From: Desulfobacterales bacterium
Lineage (GTDB): Bacteria; Desulfobacterota; Desulfobacteria; Desulfobacterales; JAHDSC01
DNA length: 38,022 bases
Reading direction: 5' to 3'
Assembly (NCBI GenBank): GCA_016931455.1
Contig: JAFGES010000008.1
Span: forward strand, 1-38,022
Both the position numbers and the translations under genes were made by a program. A model generated the notes under the pieces. It was not told the DNA's origin. It searched no databases and saw only the letters and a program-made list of their open reading frames with translations. Shown here piece by piece: positions 2,282 to 32,386 of the stretch. Every line of letters begins with the position of its first letter. The stretch's first letter is position 1.

Positions 2282-2368
2282 ATGAAAATTCGATTTTTCT
2301 ATTTTTGCTTTTTTCGCTTTTTTAGTGGCTTCTATTTTAAGAAGTCTACTCATGGGCGGGCAATTTAG
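2282..2368 (+). CDS. phenylalanine/tyrosine-rich leader peptide (28 codons)
   Basis: This short frame reads ATG to TAG and encodes 28 residues, 9 of them Phe and 2 Tyr, concentrated in the run FFYFCFFRFFSGFYF at residues 5-19. That composition matches the leader peptides of classic Phe-controlled attenuators (the enteric pheA and pheST leaders are known examples). It lies upstream of a pause hairpin, an antiterminator and a T-tailed terminator at the spacing expected for ribosome-mediated attenuation. Its function would be to measure charged tRNA-Phe (and perhaps tRNA-Tyr) through ribosome stalling. There is no strong Shine-Dalgarno sequence before the ATG, which is the main weakness. Chance poly-T coding cannot be fully excluded, but the matching RNA folds make it unlikely. 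Confidence 0.75.
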   Translation: MKIRFFYFCFFRFFSGFYFKKSTHGRAI

Positions 2369-2434
2369 AAAAACCCGAATATAGCACTTAAAAAACCATG
2401 GGTAGACAAAAATAACCCATGGTTTTATTTTTTT
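2324..2434 (+). promoter_or_regulatory. transcription attenuator: mutually exclusive pause, antiterminator and terminator helices
   Basis: Three competing helices can be drawn directly from the bases. Pause hairpin 1:2 pairs 2324-2333 with 2340-2350 (10 pairs, one G-U, one bulged base) and overlaps leader codons Phe17-Tyr18-Phe19. Antiterminator 2:3 pairs 2344-2355 (GTCTACTCATGG) with 2396-2407 (CCATGGGTAGAC), giving 12 uninterrupted pairs with a single G-U. Terminator 3:4 pairs 2392-2403 with 2415-2426 (12 pairs), followed by seven Ts. Helix 2:3 shares bases with both others, so it excludes them. The expected behaviour is that stalling at the Phe codons frees strand 2, the 2:3 helix forms, and paaK and the liv genes are read. 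Plentiful Phe-tRNA allows the terminator. Confidence 0.75.
2392..2434 (+). terminator. intrinsic terminator of the attenuator
   Basis: The arms AAAACCATGGGT (2392-2403) and ACCCATGGTTTT (2415-2426) are perfectly complementary across an 11-nt loop. A run of seven Ts at 2428-2434 follows. It lies 57 nt upstream of the paaK start codon, so it would act as a conditional terminator in the leader. It could also end read-through from the hydratase gene. Confidence 0.8.
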
Positions 2435-2491: not shown

Positions 2492-3793
2492 ATGATTTAC
2501 GATATGGAATTTGAAACATTACCCCGAGAAGCCTTGGAGGCGATTCAATTGCGCCGTTTGCAAGCAACCCTTGATCGCGTTTATGCCACGGTTCCCTTTT
2601 ATCGAAATCGATTTAAAGAGGCCGGTATTATGCCGGGGGATATAAAATCGCTAAAAGATTTAAAATTAATACCGTTTACGACTAAGCAGGATTTAAGAGA
2701 CAATTATCCTTTTGGAATGTTTGCGGTTCCCATGGATAATGTGGTTCGGATCCATGCTTCATCCGGCACAACGGGTCAAGCCACCGTCGTAGGATATACA
2801 GCTAGAGATATCAACACCTGGGCGGAGCTCATGGCTCGTGCGCTTGTAGCCGGTGGTGCTTCCCGCGGCGACATCATACACAATGCCTATGGCTATGGAC
2901 TCTTTACCGGTGGTTTGGGCGTTCATTATGGAGCTGAAAAACTGGGTGCTTCGGTGATCCCGGTTTCCGGGGGAAATACAAAAAGACAAATTGTCTTAAT
3001 GAAAGATTTTAAACCGACAATACTGACCTCAACCCCTTCCTATGCTCTTCACCTTGCGGAAGCAGCCGAAGAAATGGGAATCTCCTTTCATGATCTAAAT
3101 TTTAAATTCGGTATATTCGGTGCTGAACCTTGGTCGGAAAATATGCGGCTGGAAATTGAACGTAAACTGCACCTAACTGCAGTCGATATTTATGGTTTAA
3201 GTGAGGTTATCGGTCCCGGGGTTTCGATTGAATGCCATGAAGCGAAAAACGGACTCCATATTTTTGAAGATCATTTTATTCCGGAAATTATCGACCCGGC
3301 CACAGAAGAAGTATTGCCCTACGGCCAAACCGGAGAGTTGGTTTTTACCTCAATAACCAAAGAAGCATTTCCGGTGATAAGATATAGAACCCGAGATGTT
3401 ACTTCTCTGCATCCCGAACCGTGCAAATGCGGTCGGACAATGATTCGTATGAAAAAAGTCAGCGGTCGCACGGATGATATGCTGATTATTCGCGGGGTTA
3501 ATGTATTTCCTTCACAAATCGAAAGTGTTCTCATGGAGATCAATGAGATCGAACCTTATTATCAATTGGTACTCGACAGAGAAGGTAACCTGGATACGCT
3601 TACTGTTCTTGTAGAAGTCGGTGAACGACTTTTTTCCGACGAAGTGAAACGTTTACAGGAGCTTGAAAGAAAAATAGCAAAAAACATTAAGGAGTATCTT
3701 GGTGTTTCTGCTGATGTAAAACTGGTAGAGCCCAAAGCAATCGCCCGTAGTGAAGGAAAAGCGGTACGAGTTGTTGACAAACGTAAAATTTGA
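2492..3793 (+). CDS. paaK: phenylacetate-CoA ligase
   Basis: This 433-residue cytoplasmic AMP-forming ligase activates phenylacetate (or indole-/hydroxyphenylacetate) to the CoA thioester with ATP. The adenylate-forming motifs are complete: [16 protein letters not shown] (88-103) is the phosphate-binding loop, YGYGLFTGG lines the acyl pocket, YGLSE and RYRTRD are nucleotide-contact motifs, and [19 protein letters not shown] is the hinge and CoA-side motif. SEGKAVRV near the end holds the catalytic Lys423. The length is normal for PaaK. The start at 2492 follows GGAGATTAGAGG. It is the first structural gene after the Phe-leader attenuator and is followed by ACT and liv genes, a neighbourhood common in anaerobes that exchange aryl-acetates and aromatic amino acids through indolepyruvate:ferredoxin oxidoreductase. 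Those oxidoreductase genes are not in this window. Confidence 0.92.
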
Positions 3794-3863: not shown

Positions 3864-4295
3864 ATGAAAGTAGAACAGATTTCGGTTTTTTTGGAAAACA
3901 AGGCCGGCCGTTTGGCTGAGGTTTCCTCCATTCTGGCTGAAGCCGGCGTTAATATTCGGGCGCTTTCGTTGGCGGATACTTCCGATTTCGGCGTGCTGCG
4001 ATTGATTGTCAATGATAATAAAAAAGCGGAAGAATCGCTTAAAAGTCATGGTTTTACAGTGGGTAAAACCGATGTGGTCGCAGTGGAAGTTGAAGACAAA
4101 CCCGGTGGTCTTCACAAGATATTGGACTTGCTTTATAAAAAAGGTATCAATGTAGAATACATGTATGCTTTTGTTCAGCCGAGCGGAAATAATGCGGTTA
4201 TGATTTTTCGATTTGATCACCTTGACGAGGCGGTAAAGATTCTTGAGGAAAACGGGGTAACGGTCATTAATGGGAGCAAAGTTTATACATTGTAA
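3864..4295 (+). CDS. tandem ACT-domain amino-acid-binding protein
   Basis: This 143-residue soluble protein is made of two ACT domains. The first covers about residues 1-68 ([44 protein letters not shown] has the usual ACT start). The second covers about 72-143 ([30 protein letters not shown]). ACT domains bind amino acids, often Phe, Tyr, Trp or branched-chain residues, and regulate partner enzymes. No catalytic domain is fused. GGAG lies 8-11 nt before ATG 3864. Its position between paaK and the Liv transporter genes suggests that it senses an aromatic or branched-chain amino acid for this pathway. The ligand is inferred from context only. Confidence 0.85.
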
Positions 4296-4360: not shown

Positions 4361-5521
4361 ATGGTTTATGAAAATTCATCTAAGCAAAGTCATTTAATAG
4401 TTATGATCCTCGTGGTTTTATATTTTTTTTGTGCTTCATCTGTAAGCGCCGCGCAGACCTATAAAATAGGCGGTATCTTTTCCGTTACCGGTCCGGCCTC
4501 CTTTCTAGGCGACCCTGAAAAAAAGAGCATGGAGATGGCGGTTGAAACTATCAATAAAAACGGCGGGATTGATGGTCGGCTCCTGGAAGCCGTAATTTAT
4601 GATACCGAGGGTGATCCCACAAAAGCGGTCATGGCTGTGAGCAAACTGATTAACAAAGACAAGGTCATCGCAATCATCGGACCCAGTTTGACACCGACAT
4701 CTCTTGCAATCATCCCTTTTGCCGAAAAAGAGGGGATACCCTTGATCAGTTGTGCGGCCGGAATAAAAATTACTCAACCCGTAAAACCTTGGGTATTTAA
4801 AACCGCTCAAAGCGACGTTCTAGCAGTGGCCGCTGTTTATCAGTCTATGAAAAATCAAAATATACGCAAAATCGGTATTCTTTCCGTTTCCAATGCTTTT
4901 GGAGAAAGCGGAAAACAACAACTTCAAGATCAGGCGGACCAGTTCGGTATCAAGATTGTTCGCGCGGAAACCTTTGGCGCAAAAGATACGGATATGACAC
5001 CGCAACTGGCCAAGATACGAAAAGAGGAACCCGATGCGATTATATGCTGGGGCACAAACCCCGGCCCGGCAGTGGTTACTAAAAATATTCAGCAACTCAA
5101 TATTAAAGTTCCCCTTTACCAAAGTCACGGCGTTGCTTCCCCTAAATTTATCGAACTTGCCGGCAGTGCGGCGGAAGGTATTTATCTTCCGACGGGGAAA
5201 ATACTCGTAGCGGATCTTTTGCCTTCGATGGATCCTCAAAAAGAAGTACTGATGCATTATACGAAAGCATTTGAAACAAAATATCAAATGACGGTATCCG
5301 GATTCGGCGGCTATGCTTATGATGCCATCCATATTCTTGCAAAAGCTCTCGAGGGTTCCAACGGAGAACGAGAGAAAATCCGCACTGCTCTGGAACAAAT
5401 GCAAAACCATGTGGGTGTTAGTGGTATCTTTAATTTCTCTAAGGAAGACCATAACGGTTTAGGCCCGGATGCTTTTGTTATGGTCAGAATTAAAAACGGA
5501 ACCTGGGAACTTCTTAAATAA
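4361..5521 (+). CDS. livK: Liv-type amino-acid ABC transporter, periplasmic binding protein
   Basis: This 386-residue protein has a clear signal peptide: hydrophobic core 11-24, predicted cleavage after Ala30 in SSVSAA. The mature part is a type I periplasmic binding protein of the leucine/branched-chain group, starting TYKIGGIFSVTGPASFLGDPEKKSMEMAVETINKNGGI. IGPSLTPTSLAIIPFAEKEGIPLIS is the usual ligand-side loop. It captures the substrate in the periplasm and delivers it to LivHM. GGAGG lies 8 nt before ATG 4361. The family includes carriers for branched-chain and aromatic amino acids, amides and aromatic acids. The Phe-rich leader and adjacent PaaK argue for an aromatic compound here, but the ligand is not proven. 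Confidence 0.88.
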   Translation: MVYENSSKQSHLIVMILVVLYFFCASSVSAAQTYKIGGIFSVTGPASFLGDPEKKSMEMAVETINKNGGIDGRLLEAVIYDTEGDPTKAVMAVSKLINKDKVIAIIGPSLTPTSLAIIPFAEKEGIPLISCAAGIKITQPVKPWVFKTAQSDVLAVAAVYQSMKNQNIRKIGILSVSNAFGESGKQQLQDQADQFGIKIVRAETFGAKDTDMTPQLAKIRKEEPDAIICWGTNPGPAVVTKNIQQLNIKVPLYQSHGVASPKFIELAGSAAEGIYLPTGKILVADLLPSMDPQKEVLMHYTKAFETKYQMTVSGFGGYAYDAIHILAKALEGSNGEREKIRTALEQMQNHVGVSGIFNFSKEDHNGLGPDAFVMVRIKNGTWELLK

Positions 5522-5541
5522 CCAAAAGCTTGGGAGCAGTG

Positions 5542-6417
5542 ATGCAAGAAGCCCTACAATATGTTTTTTCCGGTATTACTAATGGTGCAATTTACGCTGC
5601 AATCGCTGTCGGTTTTTCTCTTCTTTATAATTCAACGGAGCTGATTAATTTTGCTCACGGTGAATTTGTGATGCTCGGCGCCTTGATTTTGGTAACGCTC
5701 TGGAACATATTTAAACTTCCACTGCCTTTGGCATTTTTTATAACGGTTTTCACCGTCTCCGGTATGGGGTTGCTTTTTGAGCGCCTTGCCATTCGAACCG
5801 TTTCCAAACCGCATCCCATTGTGCTTGTGATTATCACGGTCGGTGCTTCGATATTTTTTCGGGGTATCGGTATGTTGCTCTGGGGGAAAGATTCTTACAG
5901 TGTGCCTTCATTTTCAGATCATGCACCCATAACTATTTTCGGTGCCAGCCTCTTGCCCCAAAGCCTGTGGATTTTAGTTATTGTAGGGATTTCAGTCTGC
6001 GCATTGCATTTTTTCTTTAAAAAAACGCTGACAGGCAAAGCGATGCAGGCCTGTGCCATCAATAAACGGGCGGCTCGGCTATCGGGCATCCATTCGGAAA
6101 AAATGGTGTTGCTTGCTTTTTTCTTAAGTACGGGAATGGGGGCTGTAGCCGGGATTATTATCGCCCCCATTACCATGTGCAGTTACAATATGGGAACGAT
6201 GCTGGGATTGAAAGGATTCTGTGCCGCTATGCTCGGGGGGCTCGGAAGCTTGTGGGGATCACTGATCGGCGGATTTCTTCTGGGGATTGTAGAGGCGTTG
6301 GGCGTCGGTTTTTTTTCTTCCAGCCTAAAGGATGCGATTGCTTTTCTACTGCTGCTTTTGATTCTCTATATGCGACCCGGCGGAATAATGAGAGTCAAAG
6401 AAGTTAAACGCTTTTAA
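5542..6417 (+). CDS. livH: Liv-type ABC transporter permease LivH
   Basis: This inner-membrane permease has 291 residues from ATG 5542, which I prefer over the upstream in-frame TTG at 5530 because GGGAG sits 5 nt before it. The beginning (MQEALQYVFSGITNGAIYAAIAVGFSLLY) aligns with typical LivH starts. The signature NSTELINFAHGEFVMLGA and the late cytoplasmic-loop and Gly-rich region LGGLGSLWGSLIGGFLLGIVEALG are present. Several hydrophobic segments span the length. It forms the translocation pore with LivM and is 20 nt downstream of livK in the same operon. Confidence 0.9.
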   Translation: MQEALQYVFSGITNGAIYAAIAVGFSLLYNSTELINFAHGEFVMLGALILVTLWNIFKLPLPLAFFITVFTVSGMGLLFERLAIRTVSKPHPIVLVIITVGASIFFRGIGMLLWGKDSYSVPSFSDHAPITIFGASLLPQSLWILVIVGISVCALHFFFKKTLTGKAMQACAINKRAARLSGIHSEKMVLLAFFLSTGMGAVAGIIIAPITMCSYNMGTMLGLKGFCAAMLGGLGSLWGSLIGGFLLGIVEALGVGFFSSSLKDAIAFLLLLLILYMRPGGIMRVKEVKRF

Positions 6418-6435
6418 AATGGGTTATATTTTAAA

Positions 6436-7395
6436 ATGAGTTCAAAGCTTCTTCGAAAAACGGCGTCTTATGGAATTTTTTGGATCGCGGTCGCCGCAGC
6501 AGGGATGAGTATCGATAATTCATACTATCTGCAGGTCCTAACCTTTATCGGGATTCATAGCATTTTGGCACTGGGATTGAACATGCTGATGGGATATGCC
6601 GGTCAGATATCTCTGGGACACGCTGCTTTTTATGGTCTCGGTGCTTATACGACGGCTATTATGACCGTGCATTACGATTTATCTCCCTGGTTGGCGTTGC
6701 CTTGTGCGATTTGTCTCGTGATTTTAGTTGCGTTTATTGTCGGGCTACCCACCTTGAAACTATCCGGTTACTATTTGGGAATGGGGACCTTGGGATTCGG
6801 GATGATTGTGCATATTATTTTTCGAGAATGGACCTCTGTTACCGGTGGCGCTTCGGGATATGTCGGAATTCCGCCTCTTGAATTGGGGGCTTTCTCATTT
6901 TCCTCCAGTCGTAATTATTTTTATCTCGTCTGGTGCACGGTATTAATCAGCATTGTTTTGTGCCAACGCTTGATTGATTCTCGAATCGGCAGAGCTTTGA
7001 GGTCAATTCATGACAGCGAACATGCCTCTAAAGCCGTAGGAGTGAATACACGAAATTTAAAATTACAAGTATTTATGTTAAGCGCTGCTTTGGCTGGTGT
7101 CGCTGGATTTTTATATGCACATTTCGTCAGTTTCATCAGTCCGGGGACATTCGATTTTATTGTTTCAATTCGTATCGTTACGATGGTGGTAATCGGCGGT
7201 ATGGCAAGTATATGGGGGGCTTTGTTGGGTGCCTCCCTGCTGACTCTTCTTCCGGAGTGGCTCCATGCATTTTCCGATTTTGAGATGATTGTCTATGGTC
7301 TTATTCTGATGCTGGTAATGATTATTCTACCACAGGGATTAACCCGGGGTATTCTGGATATTTATGAACGTTCTCATAAAAAATATTTCAAATAG
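6436..7395 (+). CDS. livM: Liv-type ABC transporter permease LivM
   Basis: This is a 319-residue polytopic inner-membrane protein. LivM hallmarks include GLNMLMGYAGQISLGHAAFYGLGAYTTAI (about 47-75), LPTLKLSGYYLGMGTLGFG, and the C-terminal coupling region VVIGGMASIWGALLGASLLTLLPEWL. It pairs with LivH. The gene begins 18 nt after livH with only a weak ribosome binding site, so translation may be coupled. Its last 32 nt overlap the start of livG in another frame. Confidence 0.9.
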   Translation: MSSKLLRKTASYGIFWIAVAAAGMSIDNSYYLQVLTFIGIHSILALGLNMLMGYAGQISLGHAAFYGLGAYTTAIMTVHYDLSPWLALPCAICLVILVAFIVGLPTLKLSGYYLGMGTLGFGMIVHIIFREWTSVTGGASGYVGIPPLELGAFSFSSSRNYFYLVWCTVLISIVLCQRLIDSRIGRALRSIHDSEHASKAVGVNTRNLKLQVFMLSAALAGVAGFLYAHFVSFISPGTFDFIVSIRIVTMVVIGGMASIWGALLGASLLTLLPEWLHAFSDFEMIVYGLILMLVMIILPQGLTRGILDIYERSHKKYFK

Positions 7396-8206
7396 TATTC
7401 AACCGGAAAATGATAGTGAAAGTCATAGTGTTGCCGGAGAAAACAGCAGCATTGTAAGAATTGAGGCGATTTGCAAGTCTTTTGGGGGCCTGCAGGCTTT
7501 ATGGAATATTTCGTTTGATGTCCGACCCTATACCGTCCAAGGATTGATAGGACCCAACGGCGCGGGTAAAACGACCCTTTTCAATCTCATTGCGGGTGCT
7601 TATTATCCCGACAAAGGACGTATTTTTTTCGACCAAATCCAAGTTCAGGGAAAAAGAGTTCATGACCGGGTAAAGCTCGGTATTGCACGAACATTTCAAA
7701 ACGTAGAGCTCTTTGAAAGCATGACGGTCATTGAAAATGTTCTTGTCGGCCAGTACGTGAGAACCCGATCCGGATTCTGGAGTACTATTTTCCGAATGCC
7801 GTGGACCATCAAGGAAGAGCAGGGTGCCCGTGAAGAGGCGAAAAAGCTACTTAATTTTGTCGGCCTGGAACAATACGCGGAAGTCCGCAGTAGCGATCTA
7901 CCGTTTGGATGGCAACGTCTTCTGGAAATTGCTCGTGCGCTGGCATCAAAACCCAAAATTCTTTTATTGGATGAACCTGCCGCAGGGCTAAATGCAGTTG
8001 AAACCAAACAGTTGGGTGAGTTGATAAAAAAAATTCGCGATCAAGGGGTAACGATTTTGATCGTTGAGCACGATATGAGCCTTGCAATGGATGTTTCGGA
8101 TCGGATTGCGGTTCTGAACCAGGGGCGCTTGATCGCAGAAGGAACTCCAAGAGAAATTCAATCTCATGATGCAGTCATGGCCGCTTATTTGGGTGGGGGT
8201 AAATAA
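7364..8206 (+). CDS. livG: Liv-type ABC transporter ATPase LivG
   Basis: This 280-residue ATP-binding subunit has Walker A GPNGAGKTT (about 62-70), a Q-loop in RTFQNVELF, signature LPFGWQRLLEIARAL, Walker B ILLLDEPAAGLN and H-loop VEHDM. The signature differs from LSGGQ, but LPxGxQ forms are common in LivG. The only usable start in frame is ATG 7364, inside livM, which gives an N-terminal extension of about 30 residues before the usual family start (VRIEAICKSFGG). The 32-nt overlap suggests translational coupling. It powers uptake with LivF. Confidence 0.9.
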   Translation: MNVLIKNISNSIQPENDSESHSVAGENSSIVRIEAICKSFGGLQALWNISFDVRPYTVQGLIGPNGAGKTTLFNLIAGAYYPDKGRIFFDQIQVQGKRVHDRVKLGIARTFQNVELFESMTVIENVLVGQYVRTRSGFWSTIFRMPWTIKEEQGAREEAKKLLNFVGLEQYAEVRSSDLPFGWQRLLEIARALASKPKILLLDEPAAGLNAVETKQLGELIKKIRDQGVTILIVEHDMSLAMDVSDRIAVLNQGRLIAEGTPREIQSHDAVMAAYLGGGK

Positions 8207-8220
8207 ATTAGGAGTTTGAT

Positions 8221-8964
8221 ATGCTGCGCATCAGAAACTTGAAGTGCTATTACGGCCGTATTATCGCTGTAAAGGGTGTGAGCATCTCTGTCAGGAAAGG
8301 GGAGTTGATCAGTCTGATCGGCGCAAACGGTTCGGGTAAGAGTACGCTTTTAAATGCCATTTGTGGACTCCTGCCGACCTGGGAAGGGGAAATCATATTT
8401 GAAGAAATATCGCTAAGAGGATTATCCCCACCGGCAATTGTAAAAAGAGGCATCAGTTTGGTGCCGGAAGGTCGTTTGATTTTTCCACCCTTGAGCGTTA
8501 TGGACAACTTGAAAATCGGCGCTTATACTATGTATCGCCGTAAACTTCACAAGAATGTTCTGGAAGATCTGGAAATGGTCATGACACTTTTTCCGGTCCT
8601 AAAGGATCGAGCCGATCAACCGGCCGGTACTTTATCCGGTGGTGAGCAGCAGATGGTCGCCATCGGTCGGGCTTTGATGGCAAGGCCCCGACTTCTTATT
8701 CTTGATGAACCTTCAATGGGGCTGGCACCGCTTCTTGTTGAAAAAATACTCAAAACGCTTGCCGTATTACGCGATGAGGGACTGACGATTCTGCTTGTAG
8801 AACAAAATGCACAAGCGGCACTCAAGATTGCCGATCGCGGATATGTTCTTGAAACCGGTAAGATCGTGTTACAGGGGACAGCATCGGAGTTATTAACCGA
8901 TGATGAGGTCAAAAGAGCTTATCTCGGCAAAGACTATGGTGATTTTTATGAAGGAAGGATTTGA
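8221..8964 (+). CDS. livF: Liv-type ABC transporter ATPase LivF
   Basis: This 247-residue ATPase has Walker A GANGSGKST (about 35-43), the LivF-typical VPEGRLIFPPLSVMDNL, signature LSGGEQQMVAIGRAL, Walker B LILDEPSMGLAPLLVE and VEQNA at the H-loop. AGGAG lies 7 nt before ATG 8221. It is the second ATPase of the LivGF pair. The next gene starts one base after its stop codon, so the operon continues into the second paaK-like gene. Confidence 0.92.
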   Translation: MLRIRNLKCYYGRIIAVKGVSISVRKGELISLIGANGSGKSTLLNAICGLLPTWEGEIIFEEISLRGLSPPAIVKRGISLVPEGRLIFPPLSVMDNLKIGAYTMYRRKLHKNVLEDLEMVMTLFPVLKDRADQPAGTLSGGEQQMVAIGRALMARPRLLILDEPSMGLAPLLVEKILKTLAVLRDEGLTILLVEQNAQAALKIADRGYVLETGKIVLQGTASELLTDDEVKRAYLGKDYGDFYEGRI

Positions 8965-8965
8965 A

Positions 8966-10207
8966 ATGAACCATTTAAGTCCTGCAGAAAGAAGCCAGTT
9001 GCAATTGGAAAATTTACAAAGCACGCTGAATCGTGCTTATAGAAACGTACCTTTTCATCAAAATCGTTTCCAAAAGCTCGGTATGGATTCATCCCAGGTT
9101 GAAAGTTTGAGCGATCTGGCAAATTTACCCTTTATGGAACGAAAACATCTTGGGGAACATTATCCTTATGGCCTTTTTGCCGTACCATTGCGGGATATCG
9201 TCAGGATTCATACCTCGCCTGGAACTTTTCTCAATCCAACCGTCAGCGGATATACCCAGCATGATCTTTTACTCTGGCGAGAGATTGTCGCCAAAGCACT
9301 TATCTCTTCAGGGGTCACCGCTAACGATATCATCCATATTCGGCTCGATCCGGGTCTTGCCAATTGGGGCCGTGACTACAAAGATGGTGCTGAGACCATC
9401 GAAGCCAGTGTCATTCCAAATACGTTTCTATCTCTTGAAAAACAGTTGATGGTATTGAAAGATTATAAGACCTCGGTTTTGATCACAACCCCCTCCTCCG
9501 CATTCCGGCTTGCTGAGCATTTGTTTGAGAGAGAGTTGAATCCAACCCGTTTGAATTTAAAAACACTTATTCTCCTGGGAGAACCGGTGGATGTGAAAAT
9601 AAGAGATCATTTGGAAAAAAAATTACATGTCGTAGCGTGGCTCCACTACGGATTGAGCGAGATACCGGGACCAGCCATTGCGTATGAATGTAAAAACCAT
9701 GATGGCCTCCATGTCAATGCCGATCATTTTTTGCCCGAAATTATTCATCCTGACACGGGAAAAATTTTACCGCCGGGTGAAACCGGTGAACTTGTTTTGA
9801 CAACACTGACCACTCGAGCGTTTCCGCTGATCCGGTTTAGAACCGGAGATCGTGCTTGCTTTATCCAAACCCCCTGTTCCTGCGGTTGTGATTTAATTCG
9901 AATCAAATGGTTTCCGGAACGTACCGACGACATCATGAATATTCAGGGAGTAAAAGTTCACCAGAGGCAGATTCTATTTCATATCGAGCAAGCACTGGGG
10001 TTTGTTCCAAAATATCATCGTTTTTTTGAGAACCGTGAAGGACAAAGAAATTGCCTGGAAGTTTGGATTGCAATTGATGACGATCTTTTTTCCGATGAAA
10101 TCAAAATGCTCGAAAAACTGATACGAAAAACAGAAGATAATCTCAGAGAAAATATTGGTATTCCTCTAAGCATACGGCTTAAAGAAAGACGCTCTTTGGG
10201 TGAATAA
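8966..10207 (+). CDS. degenerate PaaK paralogue (probable pseudo-enzyme)
   Basis: This 413-residue protein is colinear with the first PaaK: the same N-terminus pattern, YGLSEIPGPAIAYEC, GETGELVLTTLTTRAFPLIRFRTGD and FPERTDDIMNIQGV. Its active-site motifs are changed. The phosphate loop SSGTTGQ is SPGTFLN (84-90), YGYGLFTGG is replaced, [11 protein letters not shown] is QGVKVHQRQIL, and the protein stops before the catalytic lysine segment. Reading past TAA 10205-10207 in frame gives QAEKAVKG, which resembles the lost SEGKAVRV. The frame is otherwise intact with no shifts, and GGAAGG precedes ATG 8966, so it is probably still translated. ATG 8900 lies inside livF and is a less likely start. 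A regulatory or binding role is possible. It is unlikely to be an active ligase. Confidence 0.8.
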   Translation: MNHLSPAERSQLQLENLQSTLNRAYRNVPFHQNRFQKLGMDSSQVESLSDLANLPFMERKHLGEHYPYGLFAVPLRDIVRIHTSPGTFLNPTVSGYTQHDLLLWREIVAKALISSGVTANDIIHIRLDPGLANWGRDYKDGAETIEASVIPNTFLSLEKQLMVLKDYKTSVLITTPSSAFRLAEHLFERELNPTRLNLKTLILLGEPVDVKIRDHLEKKLHVVAWLHYGLSEIPGPAIAYECKNHDGLHVNADHFLPEIIHPDTGKILPPGETGELVLTTLTTRAFPLIRFRTGDRACFIQTPCSCGCDLIRIKWFPERTDDIMNIQGVKVHQRQILFHIEQALGFVPKYHRFFENREGQRNCLEVWIAIDDDLFSDEIKMLEKLIRKTEDNLRENIGIPLSIRLKERRSLGE

Positions 10208-10297: not shown

Positions 10298-10315
10298 GAA
10301 TTTTAAATAAAATTC

Positions 10316-10392
10316 ATAACGGGGTGGCCTTTTGGGCCTGAGAAAGACCCTTAGAACCTGATCTGGGTAATTCCAGCGTAGGGAAATGACGA
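10316..10392 (+). promoter_or_regulatory. TPP (THI-box) riboswitch
   Basis: The sequence carries the conserved thiamine pyrophosphate aptamer elements in order: CGGGGTGGCC, GGGCCTGAGA, ACCCTTAGAACCTGATCTGGGTAATTCCAGCGTAGGGAA. It binds TPP in the nascent mRNA and is followed by a terminator-like hairpin at 10425-10460. It should repress the downstream ThiW transporter genes when TPP is plentiful. Confidence 0.95.
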
Positions 10393-10424
10393 TAAAAAAA
10401 CATTTGAGTTTTTTATTGCATGTT

Positions 10425-31148: not shown

Positions 31149-31177
31149 AAACGACCAAAAATAATATAAAGTGTACT

Positions 31178-31346
31178 TGATGGTGCTTAGTTAGCAGCTT
31201 AATAGGGAAGCCGGTGAGAATCCGGCACGGACCCGCCGCTGTAATCGGGGACAAAACCCGCAGTATGCCACTTCCCTGAAAAAATAAACAGGGTGGGAAG
31301 GCGCAGGTAAGTAGGATGATCCGAAAGTCAGAAGACCTGCCATCGA
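31178..31346 (+). promoter_or_regulatory. cobalamin (B12) riboswitch
   Basis: The conserved elements appear in order. GGGAAGCCGGTGAGAATCC followed by GGCACGGACCCGCCGCTGT is the aptamer core. GCCACTTCCC pairs with GGGAAGGCGC. AGGATGATCCGAAAGTCAG AAGACCTGCC closes the 3' side. It binds adenosylcobalamin or a related corrinoid and is followed by a strong terminator, so the downstream outer-membrane protein should be repressed when corrinoid is plentiful. Confidence 0.95.
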
Positions 31347-31370
31347 AGTAATCGTTTTGTGGAGATGGAA

Positions 31371-31459: not shown

Positions 31460-32386
31460 ATGTTAAAAAAATCTATTCTTATCTTGTTGTTGGTCGGCTT
31501 TGCTTTTTTCGCCAGTAACTTTTATAGGGCTGAAGCTTATAACCAGAATCCGAATCTGAATTTAGGATCAACAGGGTCTTTGGAAGGGGTTTTGCCTCCC
31601 CCCGGTTTCTATTTTACCTTATACAATGCATACTATACTGCAAGCAGCTTTCGAGATGGTGATGGAAAAAAACTTCCCGGTAGCAATGAAATTGATGTGG
31701 TTGTGTTAGTCCCCCAGTTTACCTATGTATCTTCTCAAAAAATATTCGGGCTGACTCCCGGTTTGCAGGCGATTTGTGCACTTCAGGGACTTGATGTCGA
31801 TTCCGATCTGGGATTTGAATCCGGAAGAAGCGGATTTGGTGATCTTTGTGTGGGGCCCTTTCTAGGAGGAAATTTTAAACCCACCGAAAGCAGCATTTTT
31901 TTCTACAACGCTGAAGTTAGTTTCTATTTGCCTATTGGCCGATATGATAATAAAAAGGCGATCAATCCGGGAGCAAATTTATATACGGTAGAGCCCTGGA
32001 TTAATTTTACCTGGTTGCTTCCGCATGGTTTTGAGATAAGTTCCAGATTGCATTACACCTATAACGCAAAAAACCATGATTTCGGTCCGGAGAGTTTTGA
32101 TATGCAACCTGGACAGGCGTTTCACATGAATTACGCAGCGACAAAATCGGTTTTTAATGAAAATTTCAGGCTTGGAGTTTGCGGGTACTATTTGAAGCAA
32201 TTAAACGAAGATAAAATTGAGGGAAAGCATGTACCTGATTCTAAAGAACAGGTTTTTGCAATTGGGCCGACAGCTGTTTTAAATTATAAAGGAACTTTTT
32301 TCAGTTTAAATACCATGTACGAAACTGAAGTTGAAAACCGAACAAAAGGAATAAAATCAGTTCTGCGAATTATTTATAAATTTTAA
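31460..32386 (+). CDS. outer-membrane beta-barrel protein (phenol-degradation meta-pathway/transporter-like family)
   Basis: This 308-residue exported protein has a signal peptide (core 6-19, cleavage near AEA-YN at about 26). The mature sequence has alternating hydrophobic/polar strands and the pattern of the Phenol_MetA_deg-like barrel family: LPPPGFYFTLYNAYYTASSFRDGDG near the start, GFGDLCVGPFLGGNF midway, YTVEPWINFTWLLPHGFEISSRLHYTYN, and a final aromatic residue (IIYKF) as in barrel proteins. The family is thought to transport hydrophobic or aromatic compounds. Here it directly follows a cobalamin riboswitch, so corrinoid uptake is an alternative. There is no TonB box, so it is not a BtuB homologue. 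GGACTCG precedes the ATG. Confidence 0.75.
   Translation: MLKKSILILLLVGFAFFASNFYRAEAYNQNPNLNLGSTGSLEGVLPPPGFYFTLYNAYYTASSFRDGDGKKLPGSNEIDVVVLVPQFTYVSSQKIFGLTPGLQAICALQGLDVDSDLGFESGRSGFGDLCVGPFLGGNFKPTESSIFFYNAEVSFYLPIGRYDNKKAINPGANLYTVEPWINFTWLLPHGFEISSRLHYTYNAKNHDFGPESFDMQPGQAFHMNYAATKSVFNENFRLGVCGYYLKQLNEDKIEGKHVPDSKEQVFAIGPTAVLNYKGTFFSLNTMYETEVENRTKGIKSVLRIIYKF

Follow-up and report, generated by a model that had tools for sequence, protein, structure and literature searches.

A gene for a phenylacetate-CoA ligase, paaK, heads an operon with an ACT-domain gene and a Liv-type transporter in a sulfate-reducer-like Desulfobacterales bacterium, and the locus raises the question of why such genes should follow a short reading frame crowded with phenylalanine codons. 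The window, meaning the whole stretch of DNA that was analysed, covers positions 1-38,022 of contig JAFGES010000008.1 (assembly GCA_016931455.1, forward strand). An earlier note had read the leader as a phenylalanine attenuator with the complete three-helix layout of enteric pheA and pheST.

Leader, hairpins and operon in the window

The features of the locus are listed below.

1398-2189, + strand: ech, upstream gene of the crotonase/enoyl-CoA hydratase family (Pfam PF00378)
2201-2229, + strand: sigma-70-like promoter, TTGACA at 2201-2206; the -10 element (about 2222-2229) matches poorly
2282-2368, + strand: leader ORF MKIRFFYFCFFRFFSGFYFKKSTHGRAI, 28 codons with 9 Phe and 2 Tyr, ATG at 2282, TAG at 2366-2368
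2324-2350, + strand: segments 1:2, pause hairpin over the final Phe codons
2344-2355, + strand: segment 2, 5' arm of the antiterminator, within the leader ORF and 10 nt 5' of its stop
2396-2407, + strand: segment 3, 3' arm of the antiterminator, shared in part with the 5' arm of terminator 1
2392-2434, + strand: terminator 1 (3:4), 12 pairs between 2392-2403 and 2415-2426, then A and seven T
2414-2446, + strand: linking helix 4:5, 2414-2424 with 2436-2446, 11 contiguous pairs, four of them G-U
2435-2467, + strand: terminator 2 (5:6), 12-pair stem 2435-2462 and T-run, from an independent terminator scan and covariation
2492-3793, + strand: paaK, phenylacetate-CoA ligase (TIGR02155, 631 bits, slightly below the cut-off of 646)
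3864-4295, + strand: paired ACT-domain protein (ACT_8)
4361-8964, + strand: livK, livH, livM, livG and livF, a Liv-type ABC amino acid transporter
8900-10207, + strand: second PaaK-like ligase at the operon end, 41% identical to PaaK

The leader frame, the pause hairpin, the antiterminator (12 contiguous pairs, including one G-U) and terminator 1 with its seven T were all recovered as the earlier note had described them, the pause hairpin appearing in the fold of 2240-2440. Its claim that three competing helices complete the layout held in part: the three lie where they had been placed, but terminator 2 had been missed, together with the linking helix, which joins the 3' side of terminator 1 to the 5' side of terminator 2. 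Folding of 2240-2440 gives -51.9 kcal/mol (z = -5.0 against shuffles).

Such elements can also appear in random sequence. Dinucleotide shuffles of the 302-nt intergenic region produced a short ORF with at least nine Phe codons in 33 of 2000 cases (1.7%) and a comparable 12-pair long-range helix in 23 of 400 (6%), frequencies that lend something to the idea that the Phe-rich frame and hairpins arose by chance in a T-rich region, or that the hairpins merely terminate ech. Because single elements are within reach of chance at the per-cent level in this spacer, the case depends on the relatives.

The promoter motif comes 3' of the ech stop codon, and ech is probably transcribed separately from the leader and paaK. 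A general promoter scan returned no full consensus at 2201-2229, and no strong Shine-Dalgarno sequence was seen for the leader ORF, which counts against the proposed attenuation. Exact TTGACA stands at the matching upstream place in 39 of 40 leader loci, with 1.9 expected from shuffles. The second PaaK-like ligase scores far under the PaaK model cut-offs, and its synteny with the liv cluster is retained in several relatives.

Conservation, covariation and a proposed two-terminator switch

With the PaaK protein as query, orthologs and their upstream regions were gathered across further families of this order and in named genomes, chiefly relatives among the Desulfobacterales and Syntrophobacteraceae; many of these loci belong to metagenome-assembled genomes. 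A leader element with its Phe-rich micro-ORF is conserved in 41 of 103 distinct regions 5' of paaK; cultured carriers include Desulfacinum infernum DSM 9756 (L110) and Desulfoferrobacter suflitae DRH4 (L142). It is absent from the other 62, which counts against generality, and in several of them paaK directly follows ech. In the leaders of relatives Phe accounts for 37% of in-frame codons against 21-23% in the other frames, the Phe-rich stretch mostly ends in FFFRKS(I/A/T/S)HG, and the stop codon falls 7-34 nt past segment 2 (median 10, 39 loci). The relatives share a small leader frame with many codons for the amino acid to be sensed, and its stop codon is where a terminating ribosome would mask segment 2. 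At one locus directly 5' of paaK (L081), the promoter motif and both terminators are kept, while the leader ORF and segment 2 are lost; its hairpins would always terminate, barring other control.

Covariation is clear for the antiterminator and for the terminators and weak for the pause hairpin 1:2, which counts against that helix. Compensatory changes occur at 7 of the 12 antiterminator pairs (0 of 500 shuffles). In alignment A1, helices 2:3 and 4:5 jointly have 31 cells changed at both positions, where shuffles give 8.2, and the two terminators, 3:4 and 5:6, have 39 against 12.1 (0 of 500 in both cases). Among the changes, GTCTA/TAGAC is replaced by GTCTT/AAGAC, GCCTG/TAGGC or GTCC/GGAC. Antiterminator and terminator are mutually exclusive helices that both carry compensatory changes. 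Swapping partners between species reduces pairing for 2:3 (z = 8.5), 3:4 (z = 2.6) and 4:5 (z = 6.1). In the same partner-swap test the control pairing of segment 3 with 5 showed no covariation, and pairing of segment 2 with 5 was weak (z = 2.3). T-runs follow the stems: at least five T are found among the nine bases past the arm of terminator 1 in 35 of 41 relatives and are lost in the remainder, and terminator 2 has its run in 41 of 41, a count that includes the TTTTTT of one locus (L090) overlooked only by the counting pattern.

Since helix 4:5 covaries as well and terminator 2 is conserved, the arrangement is a six-segment, his-like switch, in which 1:2, 3:4 and 5:6 form one set, with 1:2 the weaker member, and 2:3 and 4:5 the other. 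Ribosome-mediated phenylalanine attenuation before paaK-ACT-liv, the core of the earlier reading, is strongly supported by conservation and covariation and by where the promoter and the leader stop codon lie. The model changes from the three helices of pheA and pheST to six segments with two tandem terminators.

We consider it very probable that the leader would act as a ribosome-mediated attenuator sensing charged tRNA-Phe, in which one stall controls both terminators. Transcription would begin just past ech. When phenylalanine is plentiful, the ribosome would reach the stop codon 10 nt past segment 2 and mask that segment, so that 3:4 would form terminator 1, and polymerase escaping it would be caught at terminator 2. 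When phenylalanine is short, the ribosome would stall at the Phe codons and segment 2 would pair with 3, breaking terminator 1 and freeing segment 4. The freed segment 4 would pair with 5 before segment 6 exists, terminator 2 would be broken too, and paaK-ACT-liv would be transcribed. The sequences themselves show the leader and its segments, their covariation, the constant places of promoter and stop codon, and the regulon to which the element belongs; ribosome stalling, termination at the hairpins, capture by 4:5 on kinetic grounds and the physiological role are all predictions drawn from sequence comparison.

When each RNA is folded in stages, only as far as segment 5 and with segment 2 left available, 34 of 41 sequences form both 2:3 and 4:5. 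At full length and at equilibrium, 5:6 beats 4:5 in 41 of 41, which counts against the switch as a matter of stability; 4:5 would therefore need co-transcriptional kinetics, forming before segment 6 is made. In the his leader, whose alternative pairings are BC and DE, the D:E pairing is likewise taught as forming before the next segment is made.

That equilibrium preference also feeds another account, in which attenuation by phenylalanine is real and the switch acts on terminator 1 alone, with terminator 2 an unregulated, leaky back-up and 4:5 a relic of hairpin duplication. The two terminators share a GCCGTGG-like core across the family and may be duplicates of one another, which alone would yield some 4:5 complementarity, and a few of the loci that lack the leader (L130, L138 and L139) have a terminator-2-like hairpin by itself. 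The central A-U pair of 4:5 is broken in 8 of 37 sequences, a further point against the helix. Yet partners in 4:5 change together, and within-species pairing exceeds that of swapped partners (0 of 20,000). Shared ancestry affects this test in part, as the change to AACTCA with TGAGTT belongs to a single clade; further changes lie outside it (GCCCC/GGGGC in L119, TCCC/GGGA in L016). The same excess, with compensatory pairs, holds both in this set and in the members that precede other genes, where tandem hairpins show 4:5 complementarity of 24.0 against 19.4 for swapped partners (0 of 5000). A strong constant terminator would moreover blunt the switch, yet the T-run of terminator 2 is never lost. 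We regard switching of terminator 1 alone as unlikely, and prefer the coupled control of both terminators.

A family of leaders before aromatic amino acid genes

The wider search showed that the element is no isolated case: it belongs to a regulon of aromatic amino acid genes whose leaders share its architecture. Covariance model R1, whose E-values are rough, gives the window 139.8 bits and finds this architecture in 326 of the 389 genomes searched in the order. The 83 matches sampled were strong ones (mostly E < 3e-10) and in some cases part of the R1 training set; every one stands 5' of aromatic amino acid genes, namely paaK (33), livK (5), 2-amino-3,7-dideoxy-D-threo-hept-6-ulosonate synthase (31), aroF-pheA (9), DAHP synthase (2), and also pheA, trpE or trpB2. 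Across the wider phylum 23 of 24 matches precede such genes, the remaining one lying near a contig end. Leader residues fit the product, with Phe before paaK, liv and aroF-pheA, Phe and Tyr before shikimate genes, and Trp before trpE and trpB2; no enrichment of Leu, Val or Ile was found in the leaders, those before liv included. The genome of the window (G000) carries three sister elements.

G000:C15:7761-7910, - strand: L182, sister attenuator with leader MYKFSGRFFSYYWYYFYAAYLPGVR, 5' of alternative shikimate genes
G000:C8:53137-53243, - strand: L183, Trp leader KWWWQ and similar hairpins, 5' of trpE
G000:C32:36049-36200, + strand: L185, Trp leader CWWWQ and similar hairpins, 5' of a TrpB-like gene

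In this genome the sister leader before 2-amino-3,7-dideoxy-D-threo-hept-6-ulosonate synthase contains Phe, Tyr and Trp. Covariation of both helix sets and membership in this regulon refute a chance origin, as well as the idea that the hairpins merely terminate ech; the conserved frame and the promoter are likewise opposed to this account, and its probability is close to nil.

Among known systems, the his attenuator of enteric bacteria consists of AB, CD and EF stem-loops, with EF as the attenuator (PMC10989985). The present element resembles it in its six segments, its two alternative sets and the predicted exposure of the second segment by a stall on repeated codons. It differs in that it would govern two terminators, as 3:4 also has a T-tail and the form of a terminator in most relatives, and in that it would sense aromatic amino acids, with other sequences in another phylum. 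With Rfam Phe_leader RF01859 (enteric pheA) and the pheST leader it shares a Phe-rich peptide, pause hairpin, antiterminator and terminator, whereas the second terminator, the linking helix and the control of paaK-ACT-liv set it apart. Membership in RF01859 was rejected, as the weak full-length alignment scores 22.0 bits (E 0.17) against a gathering threshold of 55; the sister loci gave no Rfam match at gathering score. The rimP-leader has two tandem terminators before its gene, one with a potential antiterminator (PMC2965389), and is like the present element in this respect and unlike it in not being an amino-acid leader-peptide system. No description of such control before paaK-ACT-liv was found in the open-access literature. 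Ribosome-mediated phenylalanine attenuation is a known type of control; the proposed coupling of two terminators and the control of paaK-ACT-liv would be new. As far as the loci tested go, Rfam has no entry for this family, which spans the phylum and whose leader-peptide attenuators would each couple two terminators.

The role of paaK-ACT-liv

PaaK is chiefly familiar as an enzyme of phenylacetate degradation, and ech and the second PaaK-like ligase flank the region, so the operon might be catabolic, serving the breakdown of phenylacetate or phenylalanine, with a leader that merely blocks expression during normal translation of phenylalanine codons. An attenuator that turns genes on at phenylalanine scarcity has the wrong sign for phenylalanine catabolism, and all assignable sister elements examined precede biosynthetic or uptake genes; a catabolic role is thus very unlikely. 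Instead, paaK-ACT-liv looks like a phenylalanine-supply operon, acting through Liv uptake or phenylacetate salvage. The supply reading fits the sign of control, as supply would rise when Phe-tRNA is uncharged, and the constant position of the family before aromatic amino acid genes, in the assignable sampled cases, suggests that PaaK, a "breakdown" enzyme, helps to make phenylalanine.

In the putative salvage route, phenylacetate would be converted to phenylacetyl-CoA, from which a ferredoxin oxidoreductase of the indolepyruvate type could form phenylpyruvate by carboxylation. The genome has two indolepyruvate ferredoxin oxidoreductase (IOR) alpha genes over the cut-off, one of which adjoins a PaaK paralog. 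Genes for iorAB were also sought 5' of ech; those present turned out to be mutS and an amidase. According to PMC4162585, which cites Porat et al., Methanococcus maripaludis can also obtain its aromatic amino acids from aryl acids, via indolepyruvate ferredoxin oxidoreductase; this pathway is archaeal, and the likeness drawn here is one of gene content only. Uptake alone would fit as well, given that the liv operon by itself carries the leader in two genomes (G001 and G013). A prephenate dehydratase gene lies 2-3 kb downstream of the L182 leader on the same contig, so the genome has de novo phenylalanine synthesis.

A broader proposition, on which we are evenly divided, is that a Desulfobacterota-wide aromatic amino acid regulon would be controlled by tandem-terminator, six-segment attenuators, one stall disarming two terminators in cascade, and that paaK-ACT-liv would serve anabolism through phenylacetate salvage by reductive carboxylation together with aromatic amino acid uptake. 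It would give the widespread paaK-ACT-liv set a testable function, as the sign of control suits phenylalanine supply and not phenylacetate breakdown. Annotation pipelines that take PaaK in sulfate reducers as a sign of degradation would then need correction, and membership in the family flags those Liv transporters that handle aromatic amino acids.

At the element itself, no T-box or other catalogued riboswitch matched at the Rfam gathering score, and the window gave matches only elsewhere: a TPP riboswitch at 10309-10401, 5' of thiW and ECF transporter genes, and a cobalamin riboswitch at 31164-31358, 5' of an ORF at 31460 that possibly encodes an outer-membrane protein.
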